A stretch of 64,000 nucleotides of DNA, from positions 1,219,896 through 1,283,895 of the forward strand of contig WGMB01000003.1 in assembly GCA_016125275.1 (NCBI GenBank), given 5' to 3'. Source of the stretch: Acidobacteriota bacterium (GTDB taxonomy: Bacteria; Acidobacteriota; Terriglobia; Bryobacterales; UBA6623). Every line of letters starts with the position of its first letter. Within the stretch, counting starts at the first letter, position 1. The notes beneath the pieces are model-generated. The model was not told the origin of the DNA. It saw nothing but the letters and a program-made list of their open reading frames with translations, and did not search any database. Position numbers and translations under genes: made by a program. Below, piece after piece: positions 34,976 to 44,598 of the stretch.

Positions 34976-37624
34976 TCAAGGCCCGATCGAAACGACGGGT
35001 TGGGCCTGGGAAGAACCGCCGCCTACCTGGAGAGCAACGACATGCTCCCCTGACGACGTCGCGGCCGGAACTCGGAAATTGATCTGCAAGACCCCGTCCG
35101 CCAGCCCCGGAGCGGAACCAGCGTACAGAACCTCAGCCAACTCGCCACGGATACGGACTTCCACTGGTAGAAGCGGTTCAGCCAGGGTCCCGCCGACGAT
35201 TCGTCCGGCAACGCCCGGAGGATTCGTCTGGCCGGCGCCGGTCGCATAGAGGGTAACGATCGTGCCGGCCCGCGCAGGGTTGGCGGGACCGTTGACCGAG
35301 CCGTCTTGATTGAGAGCGGCCGCTTGCCCGGACCCGCTCGAATCAAGAGTGAAGATGCCGGGAATCGAGGGCTCTACCGTGAGAATGGCGGGCAGCGATC
35401 CCAGCCCGGCCCATTCAACAACCATGGAGGTCTGGCTCTTCCCTTCCACGGAGTACGGGACGATCGCGCTGATCTGTCTGCGGCTGCCGAACAGTAAAGG
35501 TGCAGGTTCACCATCGAACAGCACTCGCAAGCCGTCAAGGTCCGTTGCGATCAAGCCGTCCGCGCCGATGTGCGCGCTGACAGGCGTATCCGGTCCGAGG
35601 TTCTCGCCGAAAATCGAGACGATCATTCCTGGGGCGACGTTGCCAGCAAGTTGGTAGGTAGCCGCGTTGACGACGCCTGCCCGCCGAGCCAAAGGAAACT
35701 CAATCCCAGGACAAGAGTCGGCGAGAGCGATGCGCCGGACCACGTCCAGATCACTATCGTGGAGATACAGGTTACCGGCATTGTCCAGGGCAAGGTTGGC
35801 GGCCACGCCCAGGACAACCTCGGTTGAGGATTCGCCTTCCGAGAAGTTGTGTAACGCCCCTTCACGAGTCAAGAGCTGGTAGTGTCCGTCCTTGTCCCGA
35901 CGCCAAAGCCCCCTACCGGCAGTGTCAGACATGTAGGCCTGACCCTCCGATCCCGTCGCCATGCCCGTACCAACCCTTAGTAGGGACGACCACAACTCGG
36001 CTCGACGGTCCGCATCGACTCGGTAGACGCTGGAACCGTCAGACATGAGTGAGACGCCGCCTCGCAAGGCCGCGAGCTCGAGAATGCGGCTTGGTTGAAA
36101 AAACTGCGCCGCTTCGGTACTGGCCGCTTGGACCCCGATGAACGGGCTGCCCTCCGGGCGCGTCCACATCCGGCTGGTGTCGATTCCATTAGCGGAATAG
36201 GCAGCGTACAGCCTGCCCTCTGGAGAAACCGCAAGTTCAGTCGGAGAACCCAAAGCGGACATATTGACAGCTGTGTGTATCAAGCCGTCGGGCCCGACGG
36301 CGCGAATGGCCCTTACGCCGAACTCTGCGATGAGTAGGTCGCCGTCGGCATCGAACGCTACTTCCGATGGGAACCGCAGCGCCGTTTCAAGAGCGGGCGC
36401 GCCGCTCGCGATGACACCGCTCCCTACGGCGCCGGTACCAGCGAAGCGCCGCAACACGCCGTCAGTTCCCAGCGCATGCACTGTTCCCATGCCTGCGGTC
36501 GCCATGTAGACTTTGCCATCGCGCCCTGCGACCATCCCGGCGATCGGTGGAGCAGGTACATCGGCTGCCGTCGCTTGATCTCCCATGGGGCCCAAAGGAA
36601 AGCCGCTGACGACCTCCGTTTGCTCCCCCGCGGCCGTCCCGAATATTCGCGACCCCAATGAGTAGACGACGCGGCCCTGCCAGAATGCCGCATCTGAACC
36701 GCTCCCAGCAGAGTACCGACGCGCCAGGCCGTCTCGGATCTGAACTATATCGCTCCCAGCAAAGCTGAAAAACAGGCCCTCTGCCGGATCCCAAGACAAC
36801 CACTGCGTCTGGCGATTGATCAGCAGCTCCCTTGGGTCGATGCCTTCTGGAGCAGGAGGAAGGATCTTGCCGCCACCGCCGGCCACTTGCTCCACGGAAC
36901 CGTCCGGCCCCCACATCCAAATCGTTCCGACAAAGGTAGTGAAGAACAGCGAACCGTTGGGGCCTGCCTCCAGCCGTTCCGAGTAGCTCGACGGACGCAA
37001 GGGGGAGCCTAGCCCGCCCCCGACAGTCTCGATGATGCCGTCGCTACCAACCCGCCGTAGGGCGCGGGCGCCATAGTCCAGGATGAACAGCGAACCGTCC
37101 GTACCAATCGCAATATCCGCGGGCTTGATCCCGGCCAAGATAGCAGGGCCTCTGTCTCCGCTCGCGACATCGGACCCATTGCCTGCGACCACTCGTACCA
37201 CACCGTCAACGTCTACTCGCCATACACGAGGATCGACTCCGTTGACGAGGTAAAGGCGATCTCGAGAGTCGATCGCCAAGCGCGACGGATACGCGAACGG
37301 CCCTTGGTCAGCGAGGGTGCCCCCATCCGGCATTCCAGGTTCGCCGTTTCCAACCACTGTCCGGATCGTCCCGTCGAGCTCGACCCGGCGGACCCGACTA
37401 TTGCCTGAATCGGCCACATAGAGACGGCCCAGCGAATCGACGACGAGGTCGGAAGCCTGATAGAAAGTAGCCTTTTCAAACGGGCCGCCGTCGCCGCCGT
37501 AGATCAGCGGGTTGCCGATGACGGTTCGGACGGTGCAGGGGGGATCTTGCGCCCCGAGGAATCCAATACCCAATGCGGCAAGGACGATCCAACGGAGCGC
37601 CGGCGCTGGCAGACGCAATAGCAA
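34976..37624 (-). CDS. Exported NHL-repeat beta-propeller with Solibacter-type C-terminal domain
   Basis: About 882 residues from TTG 37624 (a TTG at 37687 lies in a hairpin and gives no proper leader). A signal peptide precedes NHL repeats of the form DSLGRLYVADSGNSRVRRV and AIDSRDRLYLVNGVDP, covering most of the protein. The C-terminal 230 residues start near ARRAGVVNAATYQLAGNVAPG and contain IVSIFGENLG, and are the Solibacter-type domain (TIGR03437-like). Base composition is visibly lower in GC at third positions than in neighbours, with more A/T-ending codons. Function is unknown; NHL propellers usually bind proteins or polymers. The start codon is uncertain. Confidence 0.82.
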   Translation of the reverse strand: MLLRLPAPALRWIVLAALGIGFLGAQDPPCTVRTVIGNPLIYGGDGGPFEKATFYQASDLVVDSLGRLYVADSGNSRVRRVELDGTIRTVVGNGEPGMPDGGTLADQGPFAYPSRLAIDSRDRLYLVNGVDPRVWRVDVDGVVRVVAGNGSDVASGDRGPAILAGIKPADIAIGTDGSLFILDYGARALRRVGSDGIIETVGGGLGSPLRPSSYSERLEAGPNGSLFFTTFVGTIWMWGPDGSVEQVAGGGGKILPPAPEGIDPRELLINRQTQWLSWDPAEGLFFSFAGSDIVQIRDGLARRYSAGSGSDAAFWQGRVVYSLGSRIFGTAAGEQTEVVSGFPLGPMGDQATAADVPAPPIAGMVAGRDGKVYMATAGMGTVHALGTDGVLRRFAGTGAVGSGVIASGAPALETALRFPSEVAFDADGDLLIAEFGVRAIRAVGPDGLIHTAVNMSALGSPTELAVSPEGRLYAAYSANGIDTSRMWTRPEGSPFIGVQAASTEAAQFFQPSRILELAALRGGVSLMSDGSSVYRVDADRRAELWSSLLRVGTGMATGSEGQAYMSDTAGRGLWRRDKDGHYQLLTREGALHNFSEGESSTEVVLGVAANLALDNAGNLYLHDSDLDVVRRIALADSCPGIEFPLARRAGVVNAATYQLAGNVAPGMIVSIFGENLGPDTPVSAHIGADGLIATDLDGLRVLFDGEPAPLLFGSRRQISAIVPYSVEGKSQTSMVVEWAGLGSLPAILTVEPSIPGIFTLDSSGSGQAAALNQDGSVNGPANPARAGTIVTLYATGAGQTNPPGVAGRIVGGTLAEPLLPVEVRIRGELAEVLYAGSAPGLADGVLQINFRVPAATSSGEHVVALQVGGGSSQAQPVVSIGP

Positions 37625-37642
37625 GGGTTTAGGATACCCCGG

Positions 37643-37683
37643 GCGAAGCGGCGTCCGCTTCGCTTTCAGCCTGGGCTGAAAGC
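37643..37683. repeat. Two abutting perfect hairpins
   Basis: GCGAAGCGG-CGT-CCGCTTCGC (37643-37663) and GCTTTCAGCC-TG-GGCTGAAAGC (37662-37683) have perfect 9- and 10-bp arms and share two bases. They lie at the 5' end of the NHL gene, so they may be leader structures or REP-like elements. Confidence 0.6.
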
Positions 37684-37728
37684 TCAACCCGGAATGTCAT
37701 ACTTGGGCCGCAGGTCGGCGAGGACGTC

Positions 37729-37797: not shown

Positions 37798-39036
<1,239 letters not shown>

Positions 39037-39199: not shown

Positions 39200-39251
39200 T
39201 CGAGAGGGATCGTGGACGCCCGCTCGGCGATTCTCGTACACTGTGCCCTCT

Positions 39252-39980
39252 ATGGCTTCTCAACCGCTCGACGCCGCCCAGCTCGCCGCCCTGGCCGCCT
39301 ACGACACGCCTACCGTTTGCAACGCCATCGAGTTGTTCAAGGTGCGGCCCCAGAATGCCGGCTACATGGACCGCCGGATCGCCGCGCTGTACCCCGAGTT
39401 GCCGCCGGCGGTGGGCTACGCCGCGACGGCGACGTTCCGCTCGGCGGGCGAGCCGGAGAGCGGCCGCTCGTACGGCTCGCTCGATGAGCAGATCGAGCGC
39501 TTCGGGGAGCTGCCCGGGCCGGCCTTCGTGGTGTTTCAAGACATCGACTCGCCGGCCGCGGCGGCCACCTTCGGCGAGGTCATGTGCACCTCGTACAAGA
39601 GCTTCGGGGCGGTCGGGCTGATCACGTCCGGGGCCGGGCGCGATCTGCTGCAGGTGAAGCCGCTCGCGTTCCCGGTGTTCTGCGACGGGCTGATCTGCTC
39701 GCACGGCTACCCGGCGATCCTCGACGTCCACGTGCCGGTGCATGTGGGCGGGCTGACGATCCGTCCGGGCGACTTGCTGCACGGCGACGCCAATGGGGTG
39801 ACGACGATCCCGGCGGAGATCGCCTCGGAGGTCGCCGAGGCCTGCGCCGAGATCGTGAAAGCGGAGAACATCCTGCTCGACTACTGCCGCGCCGGCTCGC
39901 CCACGGTGGCGGGCTACAAGGAGGCCCGCAAGGCCTTGGGAGCGGCCCTGCGGGCGACGACGGAACGGCTGCGGAAGTAG
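39252..39980 (+). CDS. RraA-family (HMG/CHA aldolase-like) protein
   Basis: A 242-residue RraA-like protein. Family signs are YDTPTVCNAIELFKVRP near the start, the active-site region FGEVMCTSYKSFGAVGLITSGAGRDLLQV, where GAV..GA.RD is usual, and the metal-site VGGLTIRPGDLLHGDANGV. Relatives are class II pyruvate aldolases acting on 4-hydroxy-4-methyl-2-oxoglutarate or related oxaloacetate-type acids; true RraA proteins regulate RNase E and are shorter (about 160). The size fits the aldolase-like branch. The canonical D in the GAVRD loop is kept (GRD). A TACACT hexamer (39237-39242) ends 9 bases before ATG 39252, so a leaderless transcript is likely. Confidence 0.85.
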   Translation: MASQPLDAAQLAALAAYDTPTVCNAIELFKVRPQNAGYMDRRIAALYPELPPAVGYAATATFRSAGEPESGRSYGSLDEQIERFGELPGPAFVVFQDIDSPAAAATFGEVMCTSYKSFGAVGLITSGAGRDLLQVKPLAFPVFCDGLICSHGYPAILDVHVPVHVGGLTIRPGDLLHGDANGVTTIPAEIASEVAEACAEIVKAENILLDYCRAGSPTVAGYKEARKALGAALRATTERLRK

Positions 39981-39986
39981 CCGCCG

Positions 39987-41768
39987 CTACCAGTCCGGGA
40001 CGCCGAGCTTGGCGCGCCCGCCGTCGGTGAGGCGGTTGGCATCCCAATGCGGCTGCCAGGTCTGCTCGATCACCACTTCGCGCACGCCGGGAATCTGGAG
40101 CAGCCGCTGGCGCACGGGCGTCGAGTTGCCGCCCGATCCGTAGCCGAAGTAGCCCAGCCGGGGACGTCCGCGGCCCGGCATGGCCATGATCACGTGCACC
40201 ACGTCGCCGCGCACGCGGACGTCGTAGACCAACCCCAGGTCCACCACGCTCGGGCGGGCGGCGTAGAGCTGCTCGTCCTGGCACTCGCCCAGGGCCTGCC
40301 AGATGACGGCCTTGGAGACCGGGTTGTCGCCGGCTTCGCCGCGGCGGGCGAGGCGTCCGGCCGGGGCGGCGGCGGTGAGGTCCGTGGGCAGCTCGGAGAC
40401 GGAGGCGACCAGGGGGTGCAGCAGCTCGTGGCGCAGCCCCTCCACCATCTCCTTGCCGCCCTGCTCGGTGAAGGGCATGGTGAGGTAGGCGTTGCGCTGG
40501 TGCAGCACGGCGCCCTTGGGCAGGGTCTGGCCGTGATAGAGCTGGCGGCTCCAGACGTGGCCGTGCCAGCGGTAGTACATCAGCGGCGCGCCGGGATGGC
40601 TCAACTGGTCGAAGTTGTCGATCTCGTGCTCGAGGAACAGCGCCATGAAGGCGTCTTCGGTCTGGGTGTTGATGAAGCCGGTGGCCCAGATGTCGTTGGC
40701 CTTGTCCTTGGGGGCCTCGCCGATCTGGAGCTTGCCGTCGGGGCCCATCCAGACGCCGTCGGTGAACGACATGCCGGAGAAGACCCACTCGTCGTCGCGC
40801 ATGTAGCCGAGCTCGACTTCCTGCACGGCTTCGATGCGGCCCACCTTCACGAACCAGGGCGTACCGGCGTAGAAGCGGTACTCGATGAAGAAGTTCATGC
40901 GCGCCGGCGAGAACAGCGGATGGACGGTCGAATACGGAAAGCCCCAGCGACGGACGGTGAGCGACAGAGGCCCGCGCACGATCTCGTAGTCGGGCACGGT
41001 CGGCCAGTTGGTGACGCGCAGCTTCTGGAAGTTGCCGGAGGTGACGTAGTCGTGGGCCCAGTCGATGCCGGGCGGCTCGCCGTGTCCCTCGCCGCCGGCG
41101 AACAGCTCCAGCCCGTGCAGGCGCTTGTAGATGAGCCGCTCGAGCTGGCCCATTTGCGGGGAGAGCTTGCCGCGAAAGTGCTCGTTCTCGAACTCCAGCG
41201 CAAAGCCCTCGCCGGTCACAGACAGGTCGCTGGGATAGTCGGGCAGCTCGGCGTCGGGGTTGCCGTAGAAGACGAGCCACCAGGAGCGGGAGTGCGCCGG
41301 CGAGCGTGCAAAAAACGTCAGGCGGCAGTGGCGCTGCTCGCCGCGGCGAACCTCTTCGCTCACCTGGCTGCGTACTTCTTCCAGAGCGCCGTCGCTCACG
41401 CGGGCGACGCGGACCTCCCGGCGCAGCGAATGAATCCGATCCTCCGGCACCACCAATTCCAGCTCGATCGGCTCGGCCTCACGCGCGCGGTTGACCAGCT
41501 CGTCGAGCGCCACCGGGCGCACCCAGCTCCAGCCCTGGGCCCATTGCCGCCAGGCGGCCGGCAGCTCGGCGACGGGCAGGTCGGCCTCGGCGCTCAGGGA
41601 CGGGCCGCCGAGCGGCTGATACTGCTGCTGCTCGAGGGTGAGCGATTGCCGCAAGGAGTCGGCGATGCTGCGCGCCACGCGGTAGTTCTTGGCGCGATAG
41701 GCCTCCTGCAGGAGCTGCATCTTCACGTCGAAGGAGTCTGTGCGTTGCCAGTAGCTGGTTTCTTTCAT
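39987..41768 (-). CDS. Large unknown domain fused to a MIP18/DUF59-like domain
   Basis: A 593-residue protein with no signal peptide. The N-terminal 60 residues are helical (KMQLLQEAYRAKNYRVARSI). The middle, about 100-470, is rich in beta-strand and aromatic residues, with FENEHFRGKLSPQMGQLERL, FAGGEGHGEPPGIDWAHDYV and HPLFSPARMNFFIEYRFYAG; it recalls mutarotase or polysaccharide-lyase-like beta-sandwiches but I cannot assign it. The last 110 residues match the MIP18/DUF59 fold of Fe-S assembly factors: VVDLGLVYDVRVRGDVVHVIM, IPGVREVVIEQTWQPHW and the closing LTDGGRAKLGV. The usual DPE is replaced by DEQ and the TxxxCP Cys is absent (PGRGRPRLGYFGYGSG). Convergent with the RraA gene. Confidence 0.72.
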   Translation of the reverse strand: MKETSYWQRTDSFDVKMQLLQEAYRAKNYRVARSIADSLRQSLTLEQQQYQPLGGPSLSAEADLPVAELPAAWRQWAQGWSWVRPVALDELVNRAREAEPIELELVVPEDRIHSLRREVRVARVSDGALEEVRSQVSEEVRRGEQRHCRLTFFARSPAHSRSWWLVFYGNPDAELPDYPSDLSVTGEGFALEFENEHFRGKLSPQMGQLERLIYKRLHGLELFAGGEGHGEPPGIDWAHDYVTSGNFQKLRVTNWPTVPDYEIVRGPLSLTVRRWGFPYSTVHPLFSPARMNFFIEYRFYAGTPWFVKVGRIEAVQEVELGYMRDDEWVFSGMSFTDGVWMGPDGKLQIGEAPKDKANDIWATGFINTQTEDAFMALFLEHEIDNFDQLSHPGAPLMYYRWHGHVWSRQLYHGQTLPKGAVLHQRNAYLTMPFTEQGGKEMVEGLRHELLHPLVASVSELPTDLTAAAPAGRLARRGEAGDNPVSKAVIWQALGECQDEQLYAARPSVVDLGLVYDVRVRGDVVHVIMAMPGRGRPRLGYFGYGSGGNSTPVRQRLLQIPGVREVVIEQTWQPHWDANRLTDGGRAKLGVPDW

Positions 41769-41883
41769 GGGTTAGGGCCTGGGTCGGGGCTCGTGAGGGG
41801 TTCGGCGGCGGGCCGTCGCTGATCTAGAGAGTATGCCACCGCGCCCGCCCTTACCTCCGGATTCGAGTTGCCATCCTATAGGG

Positions 41884-44598
41884 ATGTATTGGATCGGCCT
41901 AGCCTTGCTGCTCGCCCTGCTGGGCGCGACGCCCCTGCCGGCGCAAACCGCCCTCGCTGACCTGCGCATCGACACCTTTGCCGGCTCGGACTCCGTCCGG
42001 GACGGCGGCCCGGCCTCCCAGGGCCTGCTGGACTCTCCCGCCGGCGTCGCCACGGACGCCTCCGGCAACATCTACATCGCCGACCAGGGCAACCGGCTGC
42101 TACGCCGCGTCGGCCCCGACGGCCAAATCTCGACCGTCGCCGGAACCATCGCGTCGCTGGCCGTGGGAACCGTGGCGACTCAGTCCGCCTACGTCCCCAG
42201 TTGCGTCGCCGTCTCCCCGGACGACCGCGTGCACTTCTGCTCCTCGCGGCAGGTCTTCGAGCTGCTGCCGGACGGGACGGCCCGTGTGGTGGCCGGGACC
42301 GGCGGCTCCGGCGGCGCGGGCGACGAGCAGCCGGCCGTCGATGCCGGCTTCTCGTCGATCGCCGACATCGCCTTCGGCCCCGACGGCTCGCTCTACATCC
42401 TCGACCAGCAGGGCAACCAGGCGCGCCGGGTGAGCCCCGACGGCATGATCCACGCCTTCGCCGGGACGGGCGACGCGGGCTACAGCGGCGACGGCGGCCC
42501 GGCCGTGGATGCGCTGTTCAACCGCCCCTTGGCCCTCGACGTGGCCTCCGACGGCGCGGTGCTGATCTGCGACACCAACAACCACCGCATCCGCCGGGTG
42601 GCAGCGGACGGGACGGTCACGACGGTGGCCGGCACGGGGACCTCCGGCAGCGGCGGCAACGGCGGACCCGCGAGCGAAGCGGCGCTCTCGTTCCCCAGCG
42701 CGGTGGCCGCGGCGGCGGACGGCTCCTATTCCATCAGCGGCTTCAACGACGTGCGCAAGGTCGGCGCCGACGGCATGATCCAAGCCTTCGCCGGCCGCGG
42801 CGCGAGCTTCGGCGACGGAGGCCCGGCCACCCAGGCCTCGTTCGAGCAGATCCGCGGCCTGCACGCCGCCTCCGACGGCGCCCTGCTGATCGCCACCGGC
42901 GACCGGATTCGCCGCGTCGCTGCCGACGGAACCGTCAACACCGTGGCCGGGGCCGAGCACCTGCAAGGCGACGGCGGTCCCGCCACCCAGGCGGTGCTCT
43001 ACGAGCCGCGCGGCATGGCCCTGGACGACGCCGGCAACCTCTACATCGCCGACGTCTCGAACTACGCCGTGCGCCGGGTGGCCCCCGACGGCACGATCAC
43101 CACCGTCGCCGGCGGCTTGCGCAGCGGCCCATACGGCCAAGACGGACCGGCAACCGAGGTGCGGCTGAGGAACCCCACCGACGTGGCGATTCACCCCGTC
43201 AGCGGCGAGCTCTACATTCTGGACGCCAGCGACGGCCGCGTGCGCCGCGTGGACGCCGCCGGCAGGATGACGACCGTCGTCGGAACCGGCAGCCTGGGCA
43301 ACAGCGGCGACGGCGGCCCCGCCACCCAAGCGCAGATCCAGTTCGTGCAGAGCCTCAGCTTCGATGCGCAAGGCGACCTGTACTTGGCCGACCTGTTCGC
43401 CAACGTCGTCCGCAAGGTGTCGGGCGGCATCATCTGGACGGTGGCCGGAACCGGCTCGGCGGGCTATGCCGGCGATGGCGGCCAAGCCGTGAGCGCCCAG
43501 ATCAACCGGCCGTCCGGCGCCGTCGTGAACGCCGCCGGCGAGCTGTTCATCCTGGAATCGAACCGCATCCGCCGCGTGGGGACCGACGGCGTCATCGTCA
43601 CGCTGGTGACCTTGGTCGACACGCCCACGGATCTCTCGTTGACGCCCGGAGGCGACCTGCTGGCTTCGGTCCCGAACCTCAACCGGGTGCTGCGCATTCG
43701 GCCGAACGGCGCGGTGGAAGAGGCGGGGCGGTTCGGCTTCGGCTACTTCGGCGACGGCGGCTCGGCCGCCCGCGCGCGGCTGTATGAGATCGGCGCGGCG
43801 CTCGAGGCTCCCGACGGCCGCATCTTCCTGGCCGACCAGCAGAACGACCGCATCCGCGTGCTGGGCGAGGGCCCGGTGCTGCCGAACGGAGCCGTGCGCC
43901 AAGCGGCCAGCTTCTTCCAGGGCGCCATGTCGCCGGAGACCATCCTGTCCGTATTCGGCTCCCACCTGGCCGAGGAAACGGCGGTCGCCACGGAAACGCC
44001 CCTGCCGACCTCGTTGGGCGGAACGCAGGTCTTCGTCCGCGATTCACAAGGCGAGGAGCGCGCCGCTTCACTGTTCTTCGTGTCGCCGGGGCAGATCAAC
44101 CTGATGGTTCCGGCCGGCACGGCCAACGGGGGCGGCGCGTTGATCGTCCGCACGGCGTCGGGCGCGGAGACACAGGCCGACCTGAACATCGTGTCGGCGA
44201 CGCCCGGGCTGTTCTCGGCCAACGCCGACGGCGTGGGCGTGGCGGCGGCGTTCGCGCTGCGGGCGGACGCGGCGGGCGTGCAGACGACCGAGCCGGTGTT
44301 TCAGCTCGACGAGGCGCAGAACAACTTCGTCGACAAGCCGCTCAGCCTCGGCCCCGAAGGCGATCAGGTCTACCTGATCCTGTTCGGCACGGGCTTGCGC
44401 GGGGCCGACCGGGTCAACGCCCACGTTGGGAACGCTTCGATTCCGGTGGCCTACTTCGGGCCGCAGGGCGGCTTCGTCGGCCTGGACCAGGTGAACATCG
44501 GCCCGCTGCCGCGAACCTTGATCGGGCAGGGTTCGGTGGAGGTGAGCGTGGACGCCATCGGGCGCAGCTCGAACTTCCTGTCGGTGACGATCGAGTAG
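41884..44598 (+). CDS. Exported NHL-repeat beta-propeller with Solibacter-type C-terminal domain
   Basis: About 904 residues from ATG 41884, which opens with a signal peptide (MYWIGLALLLALLGATPLPAQ); the in-frame ATG at 41833 would add 17 proline-rich residues. Roughly ten or more NHL-type repeats follow, in alternating IADQGNRLLRRVG and GDGGPA...A forms (for example GYSGDGGPAVDALFNRP), an architecture typical of Solibacter proteins. The C-terminal 230 residues (from about AVRQAASFFQGAMSPETILSVFG) are the TIGR03437-like domain. The dyad CATCC-TATAG-GGATG covers the start codon. Paralogous to the gene at 34976-37624 but with normal high-GC codon use. Confidence 0.87.
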   Translation: MYWIGLALLLALLGATPLPAQTALADLRIDTFAGSDSVRDGGPASQGLLDSPAGVATDASGNIYIADQGNRLLRRVGPDGQISTVAGTIASLAVGTVATQSAYVPSCVAVSPDDRVHFCSSRQVFELLPDGTARVVAGTGGSGGAGDEQPAVDAGFSSIADIAFGPDGSLYILDQQGNQARRVSPDGMIHAFAGTGDAGYSGDGGPAVDALFNRPLALDVASDGAVLICDTNNHRIRRVAADGTVTTVAGTGTSGSGGNGGPASEAALSFPSAVAAAADGSYSISGFNDVRKVGADGMIQAFAGRGASFGDGGPATQASFEQIRGLHAASDGALLIATGDRIRRVAADGTVNTVAGAEHLQGDGGPATQAVLYEPRGMALDDAGNLYIADVSNYAVRRVAPDGTITTVAGGLRSGPYGQDGPATEVRLRNPTDVAIHPVSGELYILDASDGRVRRVDAAGRMTTVVGTGSLGNSGDGGPATQAQIQFVQSLSFDAQGDLYLADLFANVVRKVSGGIIWTVAGTGSAGYAGDGGQAVSAQINRPSGAVVNAAGELFILESNRIRRVGTDGVIVTLVTLVDTPTDLSLTPGGDLLASVPNLNRVLRIRPNGAVEEAGRFGFGYFGDGGSAARARLYEIGAALEAPDGRIFLADQQNDRIRVLGEGPVLPNGAVRQAASFFQGAMSPETILSVFGSHLAEETAVATETPLPTSLGGTQVFVRDSQGEERAASLFFVSPGQINLMVPAGTANGGGALIVRTASGAETQADLNIVSATPGLFSANADGVGVAAAFALRADAAGVQTTEPVFQLDEAQNNFVDKPLSLGPEGDQVYLILFGTGLRGADRVNAHVGNASIPVAYFGPQGGFVGLDQVNIGPLPRTLIGQGSVEVSVDAIGRSSNFLSVTIE

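Follow-up and report, generated by a model that had tools for sequence, protein, structure and literature searches.

An unnamed bacterial protein family that joins a mutarotase-like beta module to a DUF59 domain with a replaced motif

DUF59 (MIP18) is known as a domain of Fe-S maturation, the exact job of which is unsettled. In the window, by which we mean the whole 64,000-nt stretch of DNA analysed here, a minus-strand gene encodes a protein that ends in such a domain and begins with about 470 residues that the first-pass annotation, made from the sequence alone, could not assign. This raises the question of what the long N-terminal part is and what a DUF59 domain may be doing at its end. The features of the gene and its surroundings are collected in Table 1.

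Table 1. Features of the fusion gene, its product and its neighbours (positions in the window)
Feature	Residues	Positions	Strand	Basis or remark
Whole gene, 593 aa	1-593	39987-41768	-	ATG start; relatives in other genomes
Helical hairpin (helices 13-25 and 29-50)	1-60	41589-41768	-	AlphaFold2 model
RIFT-like beta domain	77-180	41229-41540	-	Model; aligned with PL26 and GH38 beta domains
Galactose-mutarotase-like beta supersandwich	181-460	40389-41228	-	Model; PL26, GH38, LacZ, mutarotase, PL4
E221..H229..W237..H239, candidate active-site segment	221-241	41046-41108	-	Kept in sister family; alignment gapped
R-D-D-E	324-327	40788-40799	-	R324 and E327 common to sister family
MIP18/DUF59-like domain	483-592	39993-40322	-	PF01883, NCBIfam, PDB, Foldseek
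D-E-Q-L-Y in the place of DPE	498-502	40263-40277	-	89-row alignment
M-P-G-R-G-R-P (family consensus MPHRGRP)	530-536	40161-40181	-	R535 at the DUF59 Cys position
Isocitrate dehydrogenase-type gene		37798-39036	-	Neighbour
RraA-like gene		39243-39980	+	Convergent, gap of 6 bases
Large NHL-repeat-like gene		41884-44598	+	Begins beyond the other end of the fusion gene; named by eye
Second large NHL-repeat-like gene		34976-37687	-	Other side of the flanking region; named by eye

The opposite strand carries a 591-codon ORF (40047-41822, plus strand), and the possibility that the fusion gene is a chance ORF facing a real gene was ruled out by the relatives of the minus-strand ORF in seven phyla. 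An RNase H gene is also among the neighbours, and no operon, sugar operon included, was found around the gene in the 64,000-nt window. The RraA-like gene was rejected as a partner, being convergent and having relatives in none of the 83 family loci searched with tblastn; one of 20 control windows contained a relative of it.

A genome scan of the best 80 of 89 confirmed stretches found relatives at no fewer than 79 other loci; in 74 of these the match spans roughly residues 30-585 at the least. From 99 BLAST-matching ORFs in 81 loci, we retained 89 that covered more than 500 query residues and dropped 10 partial ones; the window protein is counted among the 89, as is one identical pair, which leaves 88 different sequences, and thinning at 90% identity gave a 71-row alignment. 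The relatives are 45-70% identical to the window protein, and all 89 full-length rows carry the DUF59 domain together with the N-terminal module, confirming that the fusion is real. By the labels of the database records, mostly metagenome bins, the rows belong to seven phyla: Acidobacteriota, Verrucomicrobiota, Planctomycetota and Bacteroidota, with single rows from Armatimonadota, Poribacteria and Latescibacterota. The 25 Bacteroidota rows are split off by one branch (support 100). Near the window the distribution is patchy, the gene being found in 2 of 18 genomes of the same taxonomic family and in 5 of 61 near relatives (own genome counted in both). The end branch of the window copy is long (0.51, compared with a median of 0.14). 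Despite this, it departs from the family at only two (C258V and H532G) of the 133 positions that 95% or more of the remaining 88 rows keep, the median row departing at one, so that the copy looks maintained. Carriage as phage or plasmid cargo was rejected, since no relative was found among viral contigs (eight stretches matched a pattern, none was confirmed) or among 72,556 plasmid records.

Several searches agree on the C-terminal domain. The window protein alone matched PF01883 with an E value of 0.0023 (18.6 bits, under the curated 23.5), and at about residues 486-589 it matched the NCBIfam models for haloarchaeal PaaD (E 5.7e-9) and SUF_assoc (E 2.2e-7), both far under their curated cut-offs. 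A single-sequence search of the PDB retrieved TTHB138 (E 2.2e-7), and the 71-row profile retrieved TM0487 (E 3.4e-13) plus three further DUF59 structures. Furthermore, PF01883 matched 71 of the 71 rows at E ≤ 1 (best 1.5e-12), and a Foldseek search with residues 483-592 of the predicted model returned 3cq2 (E 3.1e-6, 32% identity). The assignment of the last 110 or so residues to MIP18/DUF59 is thus borne out. In fold and sequence this region is like SufT, PaaD, TM0487 and TTHB138; different from these proteins, the family has Arg for Cys and Gln for Glu, is fused to a sugar-enzyme-like module and has export signals in many rows.

An excerpt of PMC9045647 gives the canonical DUF59 motif as DPE-X26-31-T-X2/3-C. 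The window protein has D-x-Q in place of DPE and G-R-P at the cysteine site, and the family shares these changes: the column of the Glu of DPE holds Gln (Q500) in 88 of 89 rows and Glu in one, the Cys column holds Arg (R535) in every row, two of the 89 domains contain the string DPE at any point, and the T...CP signature is absent from all 89 fusion rows. D498, Y502, P531 and G534 are each present in 89 of 89 rows, H532 in 86 (Gly in the window) and R533 in 83. Standalone DUF59 relatives encoded by genomes within the same phylum served as a control, among them the intact one that the window's own genome also encodes (L123); both DPE and the cysteine are intact in all 21. The first-pass annotation had recognized that both signatures are lost, and the alignment carries this further, showing at the level of sequence that the motif was replaced in a fixed, concerted way, beyond simple loss. 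When 30 fusion domains (one row in three) were placed in a tree with the 21 standalone ones, the two groups were split by one branch with support of 100/99, as one capture of DUF59 by the fusion family would give.

The DUF59 architectures given in Section 6 of PMC4982691 have U-type scaffold, Rieske, CysE, PaaJ, P-loop NTPase, DUF1858, PqqD and unassigned partners; a sugar-enzyme module is not named among those of that section, and S2 of the same source leaves an N-terminal motif unassigned. Among the matches listed by literature searches there was no description of a fusion between DUF59 and a sugar module, a weak negative given the size of the matching literature. The architecture, which had been singled out as unusual, belongs to an unnamed family and is, as far as we searched, new as a combination; the component folds are known.

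Neither Pfam nor NCBIfam matched residues 1-470 at E ≤ 5, and the PDB gave no match under E 1; as a route to assignment, the sequence search against solved structures was abandoned, having returned only noise with both the single sequence and the profile. We therefore turn to structure, as the first-pass annotation had advised. AlphaFold2, run with the 71-row alignment, produced a model with a pLDDT of 91.2 and a pTM of 0.91, in which residues 77-460 fold into a RIFT-like domain and, after it, a galactose-mutarotase-like supersandwich, the fold names being those of the matched families. The closest structures, where rows within 1 Z are tied, were the PL26 exo-rhamnogalacturonan lyase (Z 18.4, 332-338 residues aligned over 78-461, rmsd 3.9, 9% identity), GH174 endo-1,3-fucanase (Z 17.7, 264 aligned, chain 18-376 of 510, 9% identity), GH38 beta domains (Z 15.8-17.7), aldose 1-epimerase (Z 16.6), LacZ-type beta-galactosidases (Z 15.5-16.7) and PL4 rhamnogalacturonan lyase (Z about 16). 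Foldseek likewise matched the model to GH38 (1.2e-8) and PL26 (1.8e-8). Thus, the N-terminal part does belong to a family without a name, but its fold, helices followed by two beta domains of the PL26/GH38/GH174 type, is no mystery.

The RIFT-like plus supersandwich arrangement is common to the family and to PL26 (PcRGLX/YetA-like). The PcRGLX model is absent from the 14 Pfam families matched by the 71 rows at E ≤ 1, and hhalign matched the family only weakly to a 7-row PL26 alignment (Prob 28%, E 6e-4; Prob 54% for the sister family described below), so neither family was filed as PL26. PL26 enzymes also carry a third, C-terminal domain (Pfam PcRGLX_3rd), which the window protein does not have; past residue 460 there is only a linker and DUF59. 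The two-domain beta arrangement is shared with GH38 alpha-mannosidases as well. The Glyco_hydro_38 catalytic model is not among the 14 families matched by the 71 rows, the residues before 77 are helices only, and Laman-like_dom weakly matched 1 of the 71 rows (E 0.027). The comparison with GH174 was made at the level of fold, at 9% identity; an excerpt of PMC11943901 places the catalytic acids of the GH174 enzyme Fun174A at D119/E120/E218. Fold kinship by itself shows no function.

Closer kin were found within the phylum. A profile search of 396 genomes, which scored at most three candidates per genome, gave matches in 216, most of those listed being DUF59-only, and ORFs matching the beta module only were found in at least 10 places in at least nine genomes. 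A sister family (L094-L101 and L106) is represented by eight aligned proteins, each about 580-650 aa long, that have a different domain at the N terminus and a signal peptide recognized by eye. PF01883 matched none of the eight at E ≤ 1, no Pfam name applies to them either, and Glyco_hydro_38C weakly matched two (best E 0.0094). hhalign joined the family and its sister over 369 columns (Prob 100, E 1.7e-40), and a sister model built from the eight sequences (pLDDT 73.8) again had PL26 and GH38 first. The beta module is therefore neither an established family nor invariably joined to DUF59, as it has no family model and also occurs without that domain. At one sister locus (L096) the gene overlaps an aminopeptidase-P/creatinase-like gene, named by eye, by 4 bases.

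The two families share the RIFT-like domain, the supersandwich and 46 identical positions (the same in at least 90% of the 71 family rows and in 7 of 8 sister rows), and differ in the extra N-terminal domain and the lack of DUF59 in the sister. Seventeen of the 46 are D, E, H, K, R, N or Q. Common to both are E221, H229, W237, H239, E262, R324, E327, Y399 and R408; the joint alignment is gapped around 220-260, which makes H229, W237, H239 and W255 less sure. From this conservation, the common positions are natural active-site candidates, and any naming of catalytic residues among them is a guess. Within the family itself, 74 positions are invariant in the 71 rows, and 21 of those between residues 60 and 470 are D, E, H, K or R.

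The in-frame stop two codons upstream of the ATG excludes a longer start and a hidden signal peptide for the window protein, so the earlier claim of no signal peptide holds for this copy; it does not extend to the family. A simple motif and hydropathy script, applied to mechanical start sites, found a Tat motif ahead of the conserved part in 27 of the 89 ORFs (24 Bacteroidota and three Verrucomicrobiota; only 14 of the 27 also passed the hydropathy cut) and a Sec-like hydrophobic stretch in another 15 (Verrucomicrobiota and Planctomycetota), 42 of 89 rows in total, with no Acidobacteriota row of the set flagged. Some lineages thus appear to export the protein, and others, including that of the window, to keep it in the cytosol. 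Fe-S assembly is cytosolic, so exported copies would not perform it.

We then considered the neighbourhoods of the family genes. In Bacteroidota the order is SusD, one to five family copies, MFS, SDR, a creatininase-like hydrolase and sometimes RidA. In Daejeonella and its kin the copies, 2 to 5 and diverged, stand in tandem arrays (L040, L048, L049, L053, L054, L057, L061, L070 and L071), several of them flanked by SusD-type genes and by MFS, SDR or creatininase genes, a lineage-specific amplification. The creatininase-like hydrolase, at 12168-12947 in L040, is akin to MftE, creatininase and IolN, under all of their cut-offs; it was found in nine loci, all nine with an SDR gene. A Pirellula locus (L060) has a galactonate dehydratase (315.6 bits, cut-off 311), a DHDPS and an MFS protein closest to the D-galactonate transporter TIGR00893, under its cut-off. 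L066 has a GH88-like gene 9 bases upstream of the family gene (UGL 1vd5, E 1.1e-7), and L022 a GHL6 glycosidase-like gene with two MFS genes. L132, which we judge to be the neighbourhood of the L009 relative (70% identical to the window protein), contains RidA, an enolase-type gene, MFS, a sugar isomerase, a GH109-type oxidoreductase and a weak GH67N match. Verrucomicrobia loci have DUF1501 genes nearby, and elsewhere the neighbours are M20, aminotransferase, ABC transporter or TrmO-type genes or have no assignment. These descriptions draw on 90 selected neighbours (four near-copy loci omitted), of which 29 hand-chosen ones were scanned against Pfam.

A conserved operon was not found, the neighbours varying between lineages and phyla; 40 of 79 loci lack an operon-like partner, some of them being cut by contig ends. 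By tblastn, 83 family loci (four of them later additions; L131, L132 and L134 apparently repeat contigs already counted) were compared with 20 control stretches at fixed coordinates in three Acidobacteriota genomes. MFS was found in 13 loci and 1 control, DUF1501 in 14 and 1, creatininase in 9 and 0 and SusD in 7 and 0, one Bacteroidota lineage supplying nine of the MFS loci and all of the creatininase and SusD loci; SDR (13 and 4) and enolase-type genes (3 and 3) were not enriched. The context hints at sugar acids, short of proof.

Taken together, we read the proteins as an unnamed carbohydrate-active-like family, an enzyme for acidic sugars with a DUF59 domain exapted for anion binding or scaffolding, a reading as probable as all others combined. 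The beta module would bind, and probably cleave or rearrange, an acidic sugar (uronate or aldonate). The supersandwich groove would hold the sugar at a putative site formed by H229, H239, E221, R324, E327 and R408, and the conserved His/Arg/Glu set could carry out an elimination. By analogy, PL4 offers a precedent for elimination by such a groove; the titles of its structure entries name two mutants, K150A (active site) and H210A. A lyase seems the most likely activity, followed by a hydrolase or epimerase. As to why the thiol and the acid were lost together and replaced by Arg and Gln, we infer that the remodelled domain (Cys to Arg, DPE to DxQ, PHRGRP loop) would no longer handle Fe-S clusters or a reactive thiol. 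Its pocket, with invariant R535, near-invariant R533 and H532, may instead hold a carboxylate or sulfate, or form an interface, so that the domain would be a substrate-anion-binding or dimerising scaffold. Recruitment as a scaffold, as first proposed, is plausible, and that the family is a new enzyme is what we infer from the features above. The fullest version, a new carbohydrate-active family that captured DUF59 once, gained an Arg-rich anion subsite and works as a Tat/Sec-exported acidic-sugar lyase, is speculative and on balance doubtful. Genes for amide and amine chemistry (creatininase, RidA, M20 and aminotransferase) also lie near family members, which counts against a sugar substrate.

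With its pocket residues swapped in concert and its work apparently partly extracytosolic, this sizeable family would show that the DUF59 fold can be converted to another use, and it is a clean contrast for probing the role of the DUF59 DPE/Cys site. Neither the beta module nor its sister has a Pfam or NCBIfam name as scanned, which makes them a promising lead to a new class of enzymes from environmental bacteria.

The best-surviving alternative, tentative though it is, holds that the protein is a mutarotase, epimerase, lactonase or eliminase that acts on small molecules, either sugar acids or cyclic compounds containing N, and not on polysaccharides. The window copy without a signal peptide, the unflagged Acidobacteriota rows, the aldose 1-epimerase match (Z 16.6), RidA in L054 and L132 and the Bacteroidota arrays beside SDR and the hydrolase akin to MftE, creatininase and IolN all agree with it, whereas the Bacteroidota SusD neighbours and Tat motifs suggest larger extracellular substrates, and the top two-domain matches are PL26 and GH38.

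A non-catalytic sugar-binding protein or surface scaffold, whose beta module serves only as a platform for binding carbohydrate, is unlikely. In GH38 and LacZ this beta module has no catalytic role, and up to five tandem copies lie near SusD in Daejeonella and kin; however, the 74 invariant positions, with 21 charged ones in residues 60-470 and several common to the sister family, argue for more than binding, as does the apparently cytosolic location of some members.

Finally, despite its clear DUF59 homology, a domain still engaged in Fe-S or metal maturation, for example of a cluster-bearing partner with the N-terminal module as client adaptor, is highly improbable and was rejected on the Cys-to-Arg and Glu-to-Gln replacements and the export signals, and it is further disfavoured by the lack of suf genes among the annotated neighbours and the intact L123 in the window's own genome.
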